From assembly GCA_903843225.1 (NCBI GenBank), contig CAIMOX010000016.1, positions 1 to 39,357 of the forward strand: a stretch of 39,357 nucleotides of DNA, written 5' to 3'. The stretch's first letter is position 1, and each line of letters begins with the position of its first letter. The position numbers and the translations under genes were made by a program. This DNA is from an uncultured Actinomycetes bacterium (GTDB lineage: Bacteria > Actinomycetota > Actinomycetes > Nanopelagicales > Nanopelagicaceae). Shown here piece by piece: positions 16,543-23,878 of this stretch. A model generated the notes under the pieces. It worked only from the letters and a program-made list of their open reading frames with translations. It was not told where the DNA came from and did not search any database.

Positions 16543-16860
16543 CTAAACAGTAAATCCAATCGAGCGAAGCTGCTCGCGACCATCATCAGAAATTTTATTT
16601 GGGCCCCAAGGTGGCATCCATACCCAATTTATCTTCACATCAGAGGTTAGGTCCGCAAGAACTGCCCGGGTCTGGTCCTCAATAACATCTTGCAATGGGC
16701 ACGCTGCAGAGGTCAGTGTCATATCTAAGATTGCTACATTGCTTTCATCAATCTGCATATCGTAGACAAGCCCTAAATCAACGACGTTGATACCAAGCTC
16801 AGGATCAATGACATCCTTCATCGCTTCGGTAACATCATCAAGAGATGCTAACTGACTCAT
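16543..16860 (-). CDS. DUF59 (MIP18/SufT-like) Fe-S assembly protein
   Basis: A 105-residue protein of the DUF59/MIP18 family (AMKDVIDPELGINVVDLGLVYD, then MTLTSAACPLQDVI and the C-terminal WMPPWGPNKISDDGREQLRSIGF). Members help mature or deliver Fe-S clusters, and this gene is a regular last member of actinobacterial suf operons. The cysteine in SAACPL is the conserved one. Its start overlaps the sufU stop by four bases. The name SufT is often applied, but its exact biochemical step is not settled, so no symbol is given. Confidence 0.92.
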   Translation of the reverse strand: MSQLASLDDVTEAMKDVIDPELGINVVDLGLVYDMQIDESNVAILDMTLTSAACPLQDVIEDQTRAVLADLTSDVKINWVWMPPWGPNKISDDGREQLRSIGFTV

Positions 16861-17303
16861 TTCTGCTCCTTCTCTCTGGCCTGTAGGGCTGCATCTTTAA
16901 ATGCCATCCATCCTAAGAGTGCACACTTTACTCGCGCTGGGAACTTTGAGACGCCAGCTAAGGCGACCCCATCCTCCAAAATTGCATCGTCGCCCTTAAT
17001 ACTGCCTTTACTGCTCATCAACTCTGAGAAAGCATCTAAGGCGAGAAAGGCTTGCTCGACACTCTTGCCGTGGACTAGATCGCTCATAATCGACGCACTC
17101 GCCTGAGAGATCGAACAGCCCACGCCATCCCAGGTGACATCCTGTACTACGTCACCTTCAAAAATCAGATTCAGCGTGATCTCGTCACCACAACTTGGGT
17201 TCACGTGATGAACTTGGACGCTCTTCTCATCCGAGAGCCCTTTATGCAATGGATGCTTGTAGTGGTCAAGGATGACCTCTTGATACAAGGAGTCGAGTTC
17301 CAT
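16857..17303 (-). CDS. sufU: SufU sulfur-transfer protein
   Basis: SufU takes persulfide sulfur from SufS and passes it to the SufBCD scaffold. The 148-residue protein has the three conserved cysteines Cys38 (NPSCGD), Cys63 (GVGCSISQAS) and Cys127 (VKCALLGW) together with Asp40, the zinc-binding set of the SufU type. The insertion between the second and third cysteine (around residues 80-110) separates SufU from IscU. It starts one base inside the sufS stop (TAATG), matching their partnership. No sufE is present. Confidence 0.95.
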   Translation of the reverse strand: MELDSLYQEVILDHYKHPLHKGLSDEKSVQVHHVNPSCGDEITLNLIFEGDVVQDVTWDGVGCSISQASASIMSDLVHGKSVEQAFLALDAFSELMSSKGSIKGDDAILEDGVALAGVSKFPARVKCALLGWMAFKDAALQAREKEQK

Positions 17304-18553
17304 TAGGAGACCTTAAAGTATTTCTGCGTCGCCGTGATGGCTTCTGCGAGAGCATCAATATCGGATCGGTCGTTATACAGGTAGAGCGAAGCTCGAGTGG
17401 TGCCGGCGACTCCATACTTGCGCATCAAGGGCCAGGCACAGTGATGGCCCGTGCGAACTGCGACTCCGTATTGATCTAAAACCTGGCCGGCATCATGAGG
17501 ATGAATGCCTTCAAGTGCAAAGGAGATCACTCCACCACGATCGATCGTGTCTAGCGGACCAAAGATGTTGAGGCCTTTGATCGTCTGCAGCGTATCGAGT
17601 GCGTATTGAGTGAGTTCGGTTTCGTGCTGATGAATCTTCGACATTCCAATATTTGTTAAGTAATCGATCGCTGCGGCTAGGCCTACTGCCTGCGCCATAT
17701 TTGGAACGCCTGCTTCAAATTTACGTGGAGCGGACGCCCAGGTAGCACCCTCCATCGTTACGGTCTCAATCATCGATCCGCCGAAGAGGAATGGCTCCAT
17801 CTTTGCAAGTAGAGAAGCTCTCCCCCAGAGAACCCCAACACCAGTTGGTCCGAGCATCTTGTGACCCGAAAAAGCTACGAAATCTACATCTAGCTCCACT
17901 ACGTTCATGGGGAAGTGCGGTGCAGATTGACAGGCATCGAGAACCACGATCGCGCCGACCGCGTGTGCCTTCGACGTTATGAGCGCAACCGGTGGGATCG
18001 TTCCAAGAACATTTGATTGATGGGTAATCGCAACAATCTTTGTCCGCTCGTTGATGAGTTGATCAATATTAGAAAGATCGAGACGACCATCTGCAGTCAC
18101 AGAGAACCAACGAATTACGGCGCCTGTGCGCTTGGCCAACTGCTGCCAAGGAATCAGATTCGCGTGATGCTCCATCTCGGAGACGAGAATCTCATCCCCT
18201 GCAGTCAGTACGAATGGCGCGACTTGCGTATTAGAAAATGAGTAGGCGATCAGATTGATGGACTCTGTTGCACTCTTTGTGAAAATTACTTCGTCACTAT
18301 CGGCCCCAATAAAGGCGGCAATAGTTGCACGAGCACCTTCATACGCGGTTGATGCTTCTTCGGCGAGTAGATGTGATCCACGATGAGCGGCAGCGTTGTG
18401 GTGCGTGTAAAAGAAGCGCTCTGCTTCTAGGACCTGCGCAGGTTTCTGGCTGGTCGCCCCAGAATCGAGATAGACCAAACGAGCATCATTGCGCATCCTC
18501 TTCTGGAAGATGGGAAAATCAGCCTTTATCGCTGCGACATCGAGGGAGCTCAT
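17303..18553 (-). CDS. sufS: Cysteine desulfurase SufS
   Basis: This PLP enzyme removes sulfur from cysteine, leaving alanine and an enzyme persulfide for Fe-S cluster assembly. The 416-residue protein belongs to class V aminotransferases (group II). The PLP lysine is Lys232 in FSGHKMLGPTGVGVLWG, the catalytic cysteine is Cys372 in RTGHHCAWPLM, and the histidine stacking over PLP lies in EMEHHANLIPW near 127-136. It is separated from sufC by two bases and coupled to sufU. Confidence 0.97.
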   Translation of the reverse strand: MSSLDVAAIKADFPIFQKRMRNDARLVYLDSGATSQKPAQVLEAERFFYTHHNAAAHRGSHLLAEEASTAYEGARATIAAFIGADSDEVIFTKSATESINLIAYSFSNTQVAPFVLTAGDEILVSEMEHHANLIPWQQLAKRTGAVIRWFSVTADGRLDLSNIDQLINERTKIVAITHQSNVLGTIPPVALITSKAHAVGAIVVLDACQSAPHFPMNVVELDVDFVAFSGHKMLGPTGVGVLWGRASLLAKMEPFLFGGSMIETVTMEGATWASAPRKFEAGVPNMAQAVGLAAAIDYLTNIGMSKIHQHETELTQYALDTLQTIKGLNIFGPLDTIDRGGVISFALEGIHPHDAGQVLDQYGVAVRTGHHCAWPLMRKYGVAGTTRASLYLYNDRSDIDALAEAITATQKYFKVS

Positions 18554-18555
18554 TA

Positions 18556-19308
18556 TTAGGCAGTGACGTACTCTGCGTAACCGTTCTCTTCAAGCTTGTT
18601 AGCGAGTTCTGGCCCACCAGCTTCGACGATACGGCCAGCCGAGAAAACGTGTACGAAATCAGGCTTGATGTAGCGAAGGATGCGGGTGTAGTGAGTAATC
18701 AACATAACGCCGAGGTCACTATTCTCCTTGATTCGGTTAACACCTTCAGAGACAACGCGAAGCGCATCAACGTCAAGACCAGAATCGGTCTCATCGAGGA
18801 TTGCAATCTTTGGCTTCAACAGTTCCATCTGCAAGATCTCATGGCGCTTCTTCTCTCCGCCAGAGAAGCCTTCATTGACATTTCGCTCGGCAAAAGCTGG
18901 ATCCATGCTGAGGGCTGCCATCGCCTCTTTGACTTCGCCAACCCAGCTGCGAACCTTTGGGGCTTCGCCACGAATCGCGGTCACAGATGTACGTAGGAAA
19001 TTTGAGACAGATACTCCCGGAACTTCGACCGGATATTGCATCGCAAGGAAGAGACCAGCACGTGCCCGCTCATCGACGCTCATCGCAAGAACATCCTGAC
19101 CATCGAGGGTTACTGAACCTCCGGTGATGTTGTACTTCGGGTGGCCGGCGATTGAGTATGCAAGCGTTGATTTTCCGGAGCCATTTGGTCCCATGATCGC
19201 ATGTGTCTCGCCTGAGTTGATGGTCAAATCAACCCCACGAAGAATCTGCTTCAATCCTTCTTCAGTATCGACCGCTACTTGAAGATTCTTAATTTCTAAT
19301 GTGCTCAT
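18556..19308 (-). CDS. sufC: SufC ATPase of the SufBCD complex
   Basis: SufC is the soluble ABC-type ATPase that drives shape change in the SufBCD scaffold. With the start at 19308 it has 250 residues. Walker A GPNGSGKST is at 40-48, the signature EGFSGGEKKRHEILQM and Walker B IAILDETDSGLD follow, and the latter two are hallmarks of SufC. The frame is open upstream to 19386, but AAGGAAGAG just before the ATG at 19308, and the family's usual MSTLEIKNL start, fix the choice. It lies 19 bases after the Rieske ferredoxin gene. Confidence 0.97.
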   Translation of the reverse strand: MSTLEIKNLQVAVDTEEGLKQILRGVDLTINSGETHAIMGPNGSGKSTLAYSIAGHPKYNITGGSVTLDGQDVLAMSVDERARAGLFLAMQYPVEVPGVSVSNFLRTSVTAIRGEAPKVRSWVGEVKEAMAALSMDPAFAERNVNEGFSGGEKKRHEILQMELLKPKIAILDETDSGLDVDALRVVSEGVNRIKENSDLGVMLITHYTRILRYIKPDFVHVFSAGRIVEAGGPELANKLEENGYAEYVTA

Positions 19309-19327
19309 TGATTCTCTTCCTTGCTCT

Positions 19328-19630
19328 CTATTTTTTACTCTGAATGGAAATAGATTCGCCATCGCGAACGACTTCATACGATGCAACTGCAGTGACTGCT
19401 GGTGGTGTCATGGCTTCCCCTGTGCGCATATCGAATTCAGCTCCATGAAGCCAGCATTCAATGCGAAAACTTGTGATATCCCCCTCGGAGAGAGATGCAT
19501 CTGCATGGGAGCAGGTGTCGCCGATAGCGAAGACTTCATCGCCAATTCGAGCAACGCAGACTCCAACGCCATCAACGTCGATACGCTTCGGCTTACCTGG
19601 GGTGAGCTCGCTAAAATTCAACGTTGTCAT
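19328..19630 (-). CDS. Rieske-type ferredoxin in the suf operon
   Basis: A 100-residue soluble Rieske protein. The 2Fe-2S ligands are Cys40 and His42 (DTCSHA) and Cys59 and His62 (ECWLHGAEFD). It has no signal peptide or membrane anchor, so it is a cytoplasmic ferredoxin like those of bacterial dioxygenases. It overlaps sufD by four bases, an arrangement found in other actinobacterial suf operons. It may supply electrons for cluster assembly or be an early client of it; the sequence alone cannot decide. Confidence 0.93.
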   Translation of the reverse strand: MTTLNFSELTPGKPKRIDVDGVGVCVARIGDEVFAIGDTCSHADASLSEGDITSFRIECWLHGAEFDMRTGEAMTPPAVTAVASYEVVRDGESISIQSKK

Positions 19631-20712
19631 GCGATCACCACTGAGGCGAGTTCGCCATCAATACGATTCATGATCCGTTCTTCGATCGCTTCGATCCCGA
19701 TCTTTGAGAGGATCTCAAGGAAGAAACCTCGGATTACTAAACGCTTTGCCTCTGTCGCTGGAATTCCACGGGATTCAAGGTAGAAGAGTTGTTCATCATC
19801 AAATCTGCCAGTCGTTGATGCATGTCCAGCGCCAACAATCTCACCTGTTTCAATTTCGAGGTTAGGAACTGAATCAGCACGTGCACCATCAGAGAGCAAT
19901 AGGTTGCGGTTGAGTTCGTAGGTATCAGTGCCTTCTGCGGCGGCGCGGATAAAGACATCGCCGATCCAGACGGTATGTGCGCCATCGCCTGAGAGCGCTC
20001 CCTTGTAGTTCACGCGGGACTTTGATTGTCCAACATTGTGATCGACGTGGATGCGATGCTCGAGATATTGGCCACTGCCTGCAAAGTAGAGGCCGAAAAG
20101 CTCAGCTGATGCACCGGGTCCTGAATATTCCACGGTTGGGAGGAGTCGAACGAGTGAACCTCCGACGGTGATAACAACCGATGTGAAGGAGGCATCTCGG
20201 CCGATAATCGCATGGTGCTTACCGAGGTGTACTGCATCATTCGCCCACTCTTGAAGGGTGATGAACTTTAATTGCGCTCCGGGTTCGAGAATAATCTCGA
20301 TCTCTTCAGCAAGGGTGCCGCTCCCCACGTTCTCAACGACAACGGTCGCCTTTGAATGGTTTCCAGCTCGGATAACGGTTCGTGATGCTTCAGGAGAACC
20401 ACTTGGAGTTCTCATCAGCGTAATTGGAGCATCGATGACCGAATCAGCAGCGATAGTTACAAGAGTGACTACATGCGCAATGGCTCGGACCCTCTGCACT
20501 ACAACATCATCGGTTGCTGAAATTGGGCTCTGCTCGCCAGTAGCTACATGCGTAACTGTGACGCCATGTGGGAGCGCACCTGCAGTAAGTGAGATGCGAT
20601 CAGCGATATCCGTCTGCGTCTCGTGCAAACCCTTGAGTCGCTTGAGAGGCGTAAAGCGCCATGCCTCTTCGCGACCGGTTGGGGTCAAGTAATTTGTTGT
20701 AAGGGTCGACAC
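19627..20712 (-). CDS. sufD: SufD scaffold subunit
   Basis: SufD forms with SufB and SufC the scaffold on which Fe-S clusters are built. The 361-residue protein has a degenerate N-terminal helical part and the right-handed beta-helix core typical of SufB/SufD, with the C-terminal helical region (GRFDDEQLFYLESRGIPATEAKRLVIRGFF) shared with SufB. The start codon is GTG and overlaps the sufB stop by one base (TAGTG). It is shorter than SufD of enterobacteria (about 420), but similar lengths are common among Actinomycetota. Confidence 0.94.
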   Translation of the reverse strand: MSTLTTNYLTPTGREEAWRFTPLKRLKGLHETQTDIADRISLTAGALPHGVTVTHVATGEQSPISATDDVVVQRVRAIAHVVTLVTIAADSVIDAPITLMRTPSGSPEASRTVIRAGNHSKATVVVENVGSGTLAEEIEIILEPGAQLKFITLQEWANDAVHLGKHHAIIGRDASFTSVVITVGGSLVRLLPTVEYSGPGASAELFGLYFAGSGQYLEHRIHVDHNVGQSKSRVNYKGALSGDGAHTVWIGDVFIRAAAEGTDTYELNRNLLLSDGARADSVPNLEIETGEIVGAGHASTTGRFDDEQLFYLESRGIPATEAKRLVIRGFFLEILSKIGIEAIEERIMNRIDGELASVVIA

Positions 20713-22145
20713 TATCCGACGGCCCCTTCCATCTGCATCTCGATGAGACGGTTAAGTTCTAGCGCATACTCCATAGGAAGTTCGCGAGCGATTGGCTCGA
20801 TAAAGCCACGAACGATCATCGCCATCGCTTCATCTTCAGAGAGCCCGCGGGACATGAGGTAGAAGAGTTGATCATCAGAGATTTTCGAGACAGTCGCCTC
20901 GTGACCCATTGATACATCATCTTCACGGATATCTACATACGGATATGTATCAGAGCGAGAGATAGTGTCTACAAGAAGTGCATCGCACTTCACTGTGGAC
21001 TTTGAATGGTGTGCACCTTCGAGAACCTGAACTAAGCCACGGTATGAGGTACGTCCACCGCCGCGAGCGACAGATTTCGAGATGATGGTGGATGATGTGT
21101 ATGGCGCTGCGTGAACCATCTTCGATCCAGCGTCCTGATGCTGACCTTCGCCAGCAAATGCGATCGAAAGGGTCTCACCCTTGGCATGCTCACCCATCAA
21201 AAAGACGGCTGGATACTTCATGGTGACCTTCGAACCGATATTCCCATCAATCCACTCCATGGTTGCGCCTTCAGCACAGGTTGCGCGCTTGGTGACCAAG
21301 TTATAGACGTTGTTCGACCAGTTCTGGATCGTTGTGTAACGAACTCGTGCATTCTTCTTCACGATGATTTCGACGACGGCTGAGTGCAATGAATCTGAAG
21401 AGTAGATCGGAGCTGTACAGCCCTCGACATAATGAACATACGAACCTTCATCAGCAATGATGAGTGTGCGCTCGAATTGACCCATATTCTCGGTGTTGAT
21501 TCGGAAGTAGGCCTGAAGTGGGATATCTACATGAACACCCTTAGGGACATAGATAAATGAACCACCAGACCAGACAGAGGTATTGAGCGCTGCGAACTTG
21601 TTATCACCGACTGGAATAACAGTGCCGAAGTACTCCTTGAAGAGCTCCTCGTGCTCACGCAAGCCTGAATCAGTATCAACGAAGATTACGCCGAGATTCT
21701 CAAGATCTTCGCGAATTGAGTGATAAACAACCTCAGATTCATACTGCGCAGCAACGCCTGCGACGAGTCGGTTCCGCTCTGCATCAGGGATACCTAAGCG
21801 ATCGTATGTGTTCTTAATATCTTCTGGAAGATCTTCCCACGAGGTAGCTTGCTTCTCAGTTGAGCGAACGAAGTACTTAATGGTGTCGAAGAAGATACCG
21901 GTGAGATCTGAACCCCACGTAGGCATCGGCTTCTTCTCAAAGAGTGAGAGTCCCTTTAAGCGAAGGTCGAGCATCCATTGTGGTTCACTCTTCTTCGCTG
22001 AGATATCGCGAACGACATCTTCATTGAGACCACGCTTCGCGTTTTCTGCAGCAAGATTCTTATCAGACCATCCGTACTCGTAGGTGCCGATTCCCTCAAG
22101 TTCTGGGTTCGCTGCCTCGATACGTGCTGTGAGGTCACTGCTCAT
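20712..22145 (-). CDS. sufB: SufB scaffold subunit
   Basis: SufB is the main scaffold protein for Fe-S cluster assembly. At 477 residues it is normal length. Conserved features include [25 protein letters not shown] (mid-protein), [14 protein letters not shown], and the C-terminal [19 protein letters not shown]. No LAGLIDADG or Hint-like insertion is present, so there is no intein, unlike mycobacterial SufB. Its start overlaps the sufR stop by four bases, linking regulator and operon. Confidence 0.97.
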
Positions 22146-22867
22146 GCGTGTGCTCCTATTTCTATTTTCTCTGATGAAAGATTCTCAGAGCTTTTCTGCG
22201 AAGGATTGTGAGAAAGTTTTGGAATAAATGTTGTGCAGACGCCATCGCCATGGGCGATCGTTGCCAAGCGCTGAACGTGGGTGCCGACGAGGCGAGAGAG
22301 CGCTTGCGTCTCAGATTCACAAAGTTCTGGGAACTGTGCAGCGACGTGTGCTACGGGGCAATGGTTTTGACAGAGCTGCAAACCCATTGGGCTATCAGTC
22401 ACGGTTGCAGCGAAACCCTCGTCAGTAAGGAAGTGTGCAAGTGCTGCACCCTTCTCAGTGATTCCGAGAGCGCTCTCGACGAGCGCACGTCCTCGATTTT
22501 CTATATCGAGTGCACGTTGATCAGCGAAGGCCTTCACGGAGTTCTCGGAATTTTGATTGGCGATAAATTTCAGTGCTGAGAGCGCCAAATCATCGTAGGA
22601 ATGCTCAAAGGTCTCTCTCCCTAGATCTGTCATCAAGAAGACTTTTGCGGGCCGCCCGCGTCCGCGACTCTCAAGGCTGGCTGCGCTTTGATACGGCTCA
22701 CGCGAAGTCAGGATCCCCTCCTCGAGGAGAGCATCGAGATGGCGCCTAATTCCGGCCGGGGTGATCGAAAGTCGGAGAGCTAGATCGGCCGCTGTGGCTG
22801 GGCCGCCCTCGAGGATCGCCCTGGCAACCTGGTTGCGGGTCCTCGTATCTGGCTCTACCTTTTTCAC
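22142..22867 (-). CDS. sufR: SufR, Fe-S cluster-sensing repressor of the suf operon
   Basis: SufR is a winged-helix regulator that holds a 4Fe-4S cluster and represses suf genes when clusters are plentiful. Starting at GTG 22867 it has 241 residues. The DNA-binding domain spans about 10-80 ([28 protein letters not shown], then wing [13 protein letters not shown]). Four cysteines near the C-terminus (166, 170, 183 and 211) sit in [19 protein letters not shown] and GDGVCTTF and are probable cluster ligands. An open frame continues upstream to a TTG at 22939, but those residues are not family-like. A SufR-type operator overlaps the chosen start codon, which fits autorepression of a leaderless transcript. 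Confidence 0.92.
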
Positions 22868-22880
22868 AACAGAAGTGTTG
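22864..22880 (-). promoter_or_regulatory. SufR operator (predicted)
   Basis: The minus strand reads CAACACTTCTGTTGTGA. This holds a palindrome CAACA-CTTC-TGTTG. It fits the cyanobacterial SufR site CAAC-N6-GTTG and also the mycobacterial SufR site ACACT-N5-TGTGA, both recalled from the literature. It overlaps the GTG start of sufR and is about 80 bases upstream of ctaA on the other strand. Assigned by motif match and by position in front of sufR. Confidence 0.78.
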
Positions 22881-22945
22881 CGTAATTCCCCTCTTTCCGC
22901 CACTCGGAGCGCTGGGTCATCGGGGCGCGGCCAGAGCAACGAGAC

Positions 22946-22951
22946 TACTCT
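22946..22951 (+). promoter_or_regulatory. Predicted -10 box of ctaA
   Basis: TACTCT ends six bases before the ATG of ctaA, which would make the transcript leaderless. There is no clear -35 box in the GC-rich sequence upstream. Confidence 0.42.
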
Positions 22952-22957
22952 TCACTC

Positions 22958-23878
22958 ATGACAGTTGAAGCGCGCCCATTGAGCGTGAAAGTCTCGCCAT
23001 TGACCCGTTTCATCTATACCGCACTCGTGGCGGTCCAAGCTGGAATCTTGATCACCGGAGGCGCCGTGCGCCTCACGGGGTCGGGGCTCGGCTGCCCAAC
23101 CTGGCCGCGCTGCACTCCCGGCTCATACACCCCAGTCCCCCATCAGGCCCAAGGAACCCTCCACTCGTGGATCGAGTTCGGCAATCGATTACTGACGATC
23201 TTGCTCTTTATCGCCATCATCGCTGCAGTCATAGGTGTTATTCGATTGCGCAATCGTTACTCTGAAAAGAGAGCGTTGAATTGGCTAGCTCTCACTCAAA
23301 TTCTCGGCATCATTGCGCAGATTATTCTTGGTGGAGTTACCGTACTGACTCATCTCAACCCCGCAACGGTCGGGGCTCACTTCCTACTTTCCATTGTGCT
23401 TATTGGGGCATCCCTCTCTCTGCGTCAGCGCATGTTAGAGAAACCACGCTTCGCGCTCACTGCAACTTCAACACTCCTCGTACGTACAGTGCTTGCTCTT
23501 ACCGCTGTTGTCTTAGTTATTGGAACGGTTGTAACAGGTACTGGGCCACACGCGGGTGATATCCAAGCACGTCGGTACCATCTCAACCCACAAGTAATCT
23601 CGTGGATTCACGCAGATGCAGTTATTGCGCTGATAGCGCTGACCTTCGCACTTATCCTCTTGCTGCGAGCAACTGAAGATGTCGCCCATCGTTCACTTGT
23701 TGTCAAGCAAGCAGTCCTCTTCTTGCTCATATGCTTGGGCCAAGGGCTGATTGGTTATATCCAATATTTTACGGGTCTTCCAGAGGCGCTTGTAGCAGCG
23801 CATTTGTTAGGAGCCGACTTGGTCTGGCTTGGGATTTGGAACCTTGCCTTTACCGGACGATCACTCTCTCGATCATAA
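22958..23878 (+). CDS. ctaA: Heme A synthase (COX15/CtaA family)
   Basis: This membrane enzyme oxidises the C8 methyl of heme O to make heme A for aa3-type cytochrome oxidase. The 306-residue protein has about eight hydrophobic helices. The first extracytoplasmic loop has the cysteine pair Cys46 and Cys52 (GLGCPTWPRC), typical of the Bacillus/actinobacterial type. HSWIEFGNRLLT near 69-80 carries a conserved heme-ligand histidine and the adjacent glutamate. A second histidine set appears in TVGAHFLLS and VAAHLLGADL. It is divergent from sufR and lies 52 bases upstream of tkt. The partner gene ctaB (heme O synthase), often beside tkt, is absent. Confidence 0.93.
   Translation: MTVEARPLSVKVSPLTRFIYTALVAVQAGILITGGAVRLTGSGLGCPTWPRCTPGSYTPVPHQAQGTLHSWIEFGNRLLTILLFIAIIAAVIGVIRLRNRYSEKRALNWLALTQILGIIAQIILGGVTVLTHLNPATVGAHFLLSIVLIGASLSLRQRMLEKPRFALTATSTLLVRTVLALTAVVLVIGTVVTGTGPHAGDIQARRYHLNPQVISWIHADAVIALIALTFALILLLRATEDVAHRSLVVKQAVLFLLICLGQGLIGYIQYFTGLPEALVAAHLLGADLVWLGIWNLAFTGRSLSRS

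Follow-up and report, generated by a model that had tools for sequence, protein, structure and literature searches.

A predicted 24-bp SufR operator merged with the presumed leaderless start of sufR, and a second predicted site upstream of efeU, in Nanopelagicaceae

In cyanobacteria, SufR recognizes a CAAC-N6-GTTG core (Shen 2007, via PMC8593673 and PMC13421787). In the accessible parts of those two papers, sufR and sufBCDS are divergent and are served by two sites of different affinity, and a fusion of the operator with a start codon is not described; one strong and one weak SufR site are given for Synechocystis (PMC6034842). In Streptomyces avermitilis the same core lies in the sufRBDCSU promoter, with its left half on the -10 element AACAAT and its last G as the transcription start point (Cheng et al. 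2020, quoted in PMC11995493). In Corynebacterium glutamicum a GAAC-N6-GTTG site lies on the -10 of the main promoter, and the Mycobacterium tuberculosis sufR gene (Rv1460) is leaderless and autorepressed (PMC11995493 and PMC6034842, respectively).

The locus studied here, from a genome of the Nanopelagicaceae, lies within a window of 39,357 nt, i.e., the whole stretch of DNA that was analyzed. Its arrangement at sufR is already known from the published S. avermitilis geometry, namely a CAAC-N6-GTTG palindrome with its left half on the -10 and sufR as the first gene of the suf operon; however, the text available for S. avermitilis names the core palindrome alone, whereas here we find a 24-bp frame, a fit to a second motif and a site at efeU (PMC11995493). 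As in C. glutamicum, the palindrome lies on the -10, but for that organism the same source mentions a native ribosome-binding site and, as far as it is accessible, does not describe sufR as leaderless. Like M. tuberculosis SufR, the protein is predicted to be autorepressed and made from a leaderless transcript, its gene has suf genes downstream, and its cluster-ligand cysteines are spaced as are cysteines 203, 216 and 244 of the M. tuberculosis protein. Unlike here, in M. tuberculosis the ChIP site is mapped 20 bp before the start codon, and the accessible text lists no iron importer as a ChIP target, whereas here a site at efeU is predicted (PMC6034842).

The suf cluster is on the minus strand. 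By profile search, sufR (22142..22867) codes for an ArsR/HTH_20-type regulator with a C-X12-C-X27-C signature; its N-terminal winged helix, of the ArsR/DeoR-like type, scored 28.8 bits with HTH_20 (cut-off 27) and 25.2 bits with HTH_5 (cut-off 22). The same cysteine spacing was found in all 84 full-length SufR proteins of the class. With TIGR02702, the cyanobacterial equivalog model, the window SufR reached 60.1 bits against a cut-off of 178.8. Since this cut-off was reached in none of the 296 genomes of the phylum searched, the model looks specific for cyanobacteria, and the window protein is filed as a divergent, actinobacterial type of SufR rather than as the TIGR02702 equivalog. The sufR stop is overlapped by 4 bases by sufB (20712..22145), which links SufR to the suf genes; sufB and sufD (19627..20712) both carry the SUFBD core. 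The genes that follow were named by reading their translations: a small Rieske-type ferredoxin-like ORF (fdx, 19328..19630), the sufC ORF (18556..19386, with the true start inside the frame), sufS (17303..18553), sufU (16857..17303) and the DUF59-like sufT (16543..16860).

With the G of the sufR GTG taken as +1, the site TTACGCAACA-CTTC-TGTTGTGAAA (22862..22885, minus strand) spans positions -18 to +6. CAAC-N6-GTTG is present exactly in the suf promoter at 22867-22880, and ACACT-N5-TGTGA, which we take to be the mycobacterial SufR motif, is present exactly at 22864-22878 on the minus strand, as read directly from the sequence; in the SufR papers accessible to the search, the latter motif was not found. 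Both matches lie in a core of 17 bases (22864..22880, minus strand), and the GTG (22867-22865) lies inside the operator, the last G of GTTG being the first base of the start codon. The preliminary description had reported these 17 bases as a palindrome that fits two motifs at once, and so they read; they stand as the core of the operator, the full site measuring 24 bp. The palindrome is imperfect, and by inspection 8 of 10 pairs match. As bare motifs, matches in the 39-kb window are within what chance would give: at one mismatch, CAAC-N6-GTTG occurs 14 times (13.0 expected) and ACACT-N5-TGTGA 3 times (1.8 expected). When the 24-mer was searched by its own letters with up to 3 mismatches, no second match was found in the window, and none in 100 shuffles. 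The operator is credible because it is kept in relatives, and not because of the bare motif matches.

The site lies within a promoter. A -10-like AACACT (22874..22879, minus strand), the counterpart of the S. avermitilis AACAAT, is inside the operator, and a -35-like GTGGCG (22898..22903, minus strand) has T-35 and G-33, both invariant in the family sample. The operator loci carry the -10-like ACA[AC]T inside the site; A-11 and T-7 are nearly invariant, reaching frequencies of 1.00 and 1.00 in the family sample and of 1.00 and 0.96 in that of the class. Of the distinct promoters, 70 of 71 in the family and 66 of 67 in the class lack a Shine-Dalgarno-like run. The -10 thus occupies -12 to -7 relative to the start codon (22865..22867, minus strand) with no ribosome-binding site, the geometry by which leaderless starts are recognized, and the -10 of the divergent ctaA gene, in the same register, provides an internal yardstick. 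On geometric grounds the leaderless sufR-suf transcript proposed earlier is supported, with 22867 as its predicted start point. It follows from this promoter anatomy that the operator is superposed on the -10, the predicted start point and the start codon.

We then turn to relatives. SufR matches were obtained in 116 of the 121 genomes of the family (Nanopelagicaceae, that of the source genome) and in 283 of the 296 class genomes, two of the latter at E values of about 1e-4; in the class search, a match was absent from 11 of the 13 genomes of family f31 and weak in the other 2. Promoters came from 76 loci of the family and from 69 of the class, the latter at 68 distinct places, L145 (same place as L068) and L047 (too little upstream sequence) being left out of the counts. 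They were scanned with ACAMTNNNGTTGTGAAA, which has 14 fixed positions; a match had to agree at 10 or more of the 14, its GTG position being in frame with the SufR homology and no stop codon intervening. The operator was found at one fixed place in 75 of the 76 family and 67 of the 68 distinct class loci. Of the two exceptions, L098 in the family has 6 bases left before the contig end; the other, in the class, is L071. The family was sampled densely, and these counts are hence not independent events. The start codon is literally GTG in 75/75 family and 66/67 class operator loci (GTT in L078), and the weakest sites, with 10 to 12 of the 14 positions, are those of L069, L070, L072, L078, L085 and L113. 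Hence, a chance match is ruled out by conservation in relatives, and the earlier proposal of a SufR-type operator lying on the sufR start codon, for which a search upstream of sufR in related genomes had been suggested, is supported by this uniform placing.

Position frequencies were taken after removal of identical rows, which left 71 distinct family and 67 distinct class promoters. The family consensus is GAATTACG[CA][AC]ACA[AC]TNN[TC]GTTGTGAAA. The eight bases that precede the 17-base core, GAATTACG at -21 to -14, show roughly the same conservation in the family as the core itself (0.90 to 1.00 at each position). Exact CAAC-N6-GTTG is absent from 27 of the 71 family and 50 of the 67 class promoters. 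The promoter and the start codon account for some of the conservation at the sufR site.

The frame was also sought farther away. Named genomes were scanned with five distant SufR relatives, giving 68 outgroup loci, from which L280 (too short) was left out. Nine of the 68 are cyanobacterial, and sufB lies in the locus for these nine only. All nine sufR-sufB loci have an exact CAAC-N6-GTTG, the core found in the window, inside a similar palindrome of 24 bp, which agrees with the actinobacterial half-site frame at 15 to 17 of 20 positions and in each case beats all 60 shuffles; the half-site TTAA[AG]CAACA stands on at least one side in seven of them, L257 and L265 having close variants. None of the 58 other outgroup loci scanned has the exact core, and one of them, L240, carries a different strong palindrome. 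The proteins of these 58 loci (Paenibacillus, Chloroflexi, Acidimicrobiia and others) are SufR-like, with an EHNCAI-type motif and without sufB in the locus, and we treat them as presumptive paralogues. The label "cyanobacterial" that the preliminary description gave to CAAC-N6-GTTG fits the nine loci but is too narrow, since the core is also published for S. avermitilis at the same position (quoted in PMC11995493). Nineteen loci from other classes of the phylum were scanned with the 24-bp pattern. In 12 of them (e.g., TATCGCAACACGAATGTTGCGTAA) the best match beat every one of 100 shuffles, two of the 12, L151 and L165, being convincing in one half only; the other 7 loci gave no match better than all shuffles. 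Some of these sites have a -10-like TACTAT at the left edge. In a second, overlapping set, the best match beat the shuffles in 11 of 23 scanned loci. L152 (no tblastn hit) was left out of the former set, and six loci without the HTH signature out of the latter. The shuffles for the other-class, cyanobacterial and efeU scans keep base composition only, and those for the second set aim to keep dinucleotides. From these sites we deduce a frame of the form TTA-N2-CAACA-N4-TGTTG-N2-TAA.

In the source genome (1.35 Mb, 54 contigs), a search with up to 3 mismatches returned two sites only, those of sufR and efeU. The second copy, TTACGCAACATTCAGGTTGCGTAA (G000:C38:23919-23942, equal to L286:1501-1524), ends 27 bases before the ORF of the iron permease EfeU, which scored 272.7 bits with NCBIfam NF041756 (cut-off 255) and matches Pfam FTR1. 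It is a nearly perfect palindrome, TTACGCAAC-N6-GTTGCGTAA, more perfect than the sufR site. The efeU -10 is TAGGCT at -12 to -7, and the operator, at -51 to -28, hence covers the -35 region. EfeU matches were found in 96 of the 121 family genomes, the fragments in G047, G120 and G650 being left out of promoter counts. Each of the 70 efeU promoters retrieved from the family carries the palindrome: 30/30 in a first set, 27 to 29 bases from the start, and 40/40 in a further set that included distant EfeU variants, at a larger distance in L378-L381. When 296 class genomes were searched for TTACGCAAC-N6-GTTGCGTAA with one mismatch, matches were obtained in 31 of the 31 family genomes and in 11 of the 265 others; a reversed control pattern gave 0 matches. 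In 29 of the 31 the palindrome neighbours efeU, as established for 19 by comparing proteins within the locus and for 10 by matching coordinates. It also stands before a solute-binding-protein gene in G388 (L341), in G352 (L342) and at a second place in G109 (L344). The L342 product matches solved ferric-iron-binding proteins (best E value 8.2e-67), its NCBIfam matches to phosphonate and thiamine binders being all below the cut-offs, and by reading the L341 and L344 products resemble it. The L342 gene adjoins a thiolase gene, and the same thiolase neighbours efeU in the source genome. At one mismatch, no efeU link was seen outside the family, the sites of G254, G231 and G164 lying outside this comparison; in the outgroup family f49, an EfeU relative was found in 1 of 35 genomes.

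From these results we predict that SufR controls iron import in this family, which suggests one regulator serving both uptake and Fe-S building. IscR, RirA and IdeR are Fe-S or iron sensors that control iron import, and SufR would resemble them, as a sensor that shuts iron import, if it represses efeU; the protein family and the operator differ. Searches of the literature, with subscription papers mostly outside their scope, found none linking SufR with EfeU or an iron-import regulon. IdeR control of efeU in the source genome was rejected on the absence of a match to the DtxR/IdeR C-terminal domain (PF02742), a domain matched in 11 of 14 control genomes. In three loci of one genus (L379, L380 and L381) a separate box that resembles the IdeR box lies between the palindrome and the efeU start.

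Could the two motifs at sufR be two different operators that overlap here by accident? Their symmetry centres differ by 2.5 bp, and promoters that fit both are confined, in this sample, to the family (33 of 71 distinct promoters, against 0 of 67 outside); CAAC-N6-GTTG fits 44/71 family and 17/67 class promoters, and ACACT-N5-TGTGA 42/71 and 25/67. Yet the variants occupy the same place to the base. They differ mainly at positions -13 and -12, which are CA in 44 of 75 family loci (one further family locus has too little sequence) and 18 of 67 class loci, and otherwise AC, GC, TC, CC, TA or rarer pairs, while the right half is unchanged. In the protein, RRHL of the recognition helix is invariant in both groups of sites (one K for R), and a residue close by is Q at 11 of the 19 class loci of the CAAC type and usually P in the remaining loci. 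Six changes of site type are enough on a quick SufR tree (97 rows, long branches). Because of the identical place, the two-base switch, the constant RRHL and the few changes on the tree, ACACT-N5-TGTGA is most plausibly one and the same operator, relaxed in its left half and read in another register; two separate operators were rejected, and an accidental overlap seems scarcely credible. The earlier suggestion that both motifs are views of one site thus agrees with our data, the cyanobacterial loci having the same core and a large part of the 24-bp frame. Most of the -10 is ACACT, and TGTGA holds the start codon, so that the one-site reading would explain why the mycobacterial version of the motif contains it. 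A further alternative, that the conserved block is a leaderless promoter with its start codon and the palindrome a by-product to which no SufR binds, can point to A-11, T-7, T-35 and GTG, all of which such a promoter and start need. It leaves aside TTACG at -18 to -14, C-10, A-9, G-3, T-2 and T-1, which are near-invariant in the family with no promoter or codon need, as well as the same core at cyanobacterial sufR-sufB and the same 24-bp frame at efeU in another place relative to the promoter. We regard it as very improbable.

More weight is due to the possibility that SufR binds at sufR and that the efeU palindrome belongs to another iron regulator (Fur-type or unknown) with a similar half-site. 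The efeU site is the more perfect of the two, the efeU link is seen in one family only, and our search for classical iron regulators in the source genome was confined to DtxR/IdeR. Nevertheless, the left half of the efeU site, TTACGCAACA, is the commonest left half at sufR in the family (43 of 75), the genome-wide scan gives just the sufR and efeU sites, and the source genome has one SufR-like protein and no DtxR/IdeR C-terminal domain; furthermore, L379-L381 carry the efeU site in addition to their separate, presumed IdeR-like box. A different regulator at efeU is possible but rather unlikely. The site at sufR could also act on both divergent genes and so link Fe-S assembly to heme A through ctaA, as raised in the preliminary description. 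The ctaA gene (COX15-CtaA; 22958..23878, plus strand) was sought in relatives by tblastn with the window CtaA in the 1.5 kb upstream of sufR; in all 73 family loci whose upstream sequence was long enough, it stands next to sufR in divergent orientation. It has, however, its own -10, TACTCT (22946..22951, plus strand), 12 to 7 bases before the ATG and about 60 bp away from the operator, and the interval from the sufR GTG to the ctaA ATG, counted between the first bases of the two codons, measures 90 bases, not the about 80 given before. Across 52 aligned family loci (for 21 others the rule used yielded no ATG), a TAGGCT-like -10 occupies -12 to -7, so that ctaA appears leaderless too, and the spacing between the two starts varies from 60 to 129 bp. 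No second operator was found between the sufR operator and ctaA in any of the 73 loci (best 13/20, no exact core), and 67 distinct class loci retain the operator, with a detectable ctaA adjoining in 1 of the 68 class rows. A ctaA operator was thus rejected on the separate -10, the variable spacing and the missing second site, and an effect on heme A synthesis is most improbable.

The 24-bp site is, in all likelihood, the autoregulatory operator of SufR, which would occlude the leaderless suf promoter, and iron import is very probably repressed as well. A SufR dimer carrying an Fe-S cluster would bind TTACGCAACA-N4-TGTTGTGAAA on the minus strand, cover the -10, the start point and the GTG of sufR, and keep RNA polymerase off. 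Repression by promoter occlusion is most likely, and simpler than the roadblock put forward earlier, since the site covers -18 to +6. The leaderless transcript would comprise sufR-sufB-sufD-fdx-sufC-sufS-sufU-sufT as a single operon. By analogy with other SufR proteins, the operon would be repressed with the cluster intact and expressed with the cluster lost: upon loss or alteration of the cluster, through iron shortage or oxidative or NO stress, SufR would leave and the suf operon would be made. With its core CAACA, shared with cyanobacteria, the left half would represent the older kind of half-site, and the right half would have fused with the start codon and the codon after it (GTGAAA). At efeU, SufR would cover the -35 region and again act by occlusion; from their symmetry, the efeU site is expected to be the stronger and the sufR site the weaker one, comparable to the strong and weak sites of Synechocystis.

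On balance, we favor a broader proposal, drawn from sequence comparison: i) SufR would be the iron regulator of this family of small-genome Actinomycetia, shutting both Fe-S assembly and iron import in a genome that lacks IdeR/DtxR, from an import operator over the efeU -35 region or, in some genomes, before the ferric-iron-binding-protein gene, and ii) the known SufR operators would derive from one 24-bp frame. If this is true, Fe-S cluster status, rather than a classical iron sensor, sets iron acquisition in the family. Two SufR motifs described separately would become one testable operator, with a base-level prediction for SufR sites across Actinomycetia, and iron import would belong to the SufR regulon, as the efeU sites predict.

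Two other groups of sites were noted. In L150, L151, L153, L155 and L160, from other classes of the phylum, a TTnCnCAAC half-site is followed by a -10-like stretch, and a GTTG-like half lies upstream in outward orientation, possibly another operator layout. In 8 genomes of family f18 (L318-L325), palindromes of the form TTACGCA-N10-TGCGTAA, with a different interior, were found; these are probably sites of another regulator, and by reading, the next gene in L320 is geranylgeranyl-reductase-like.
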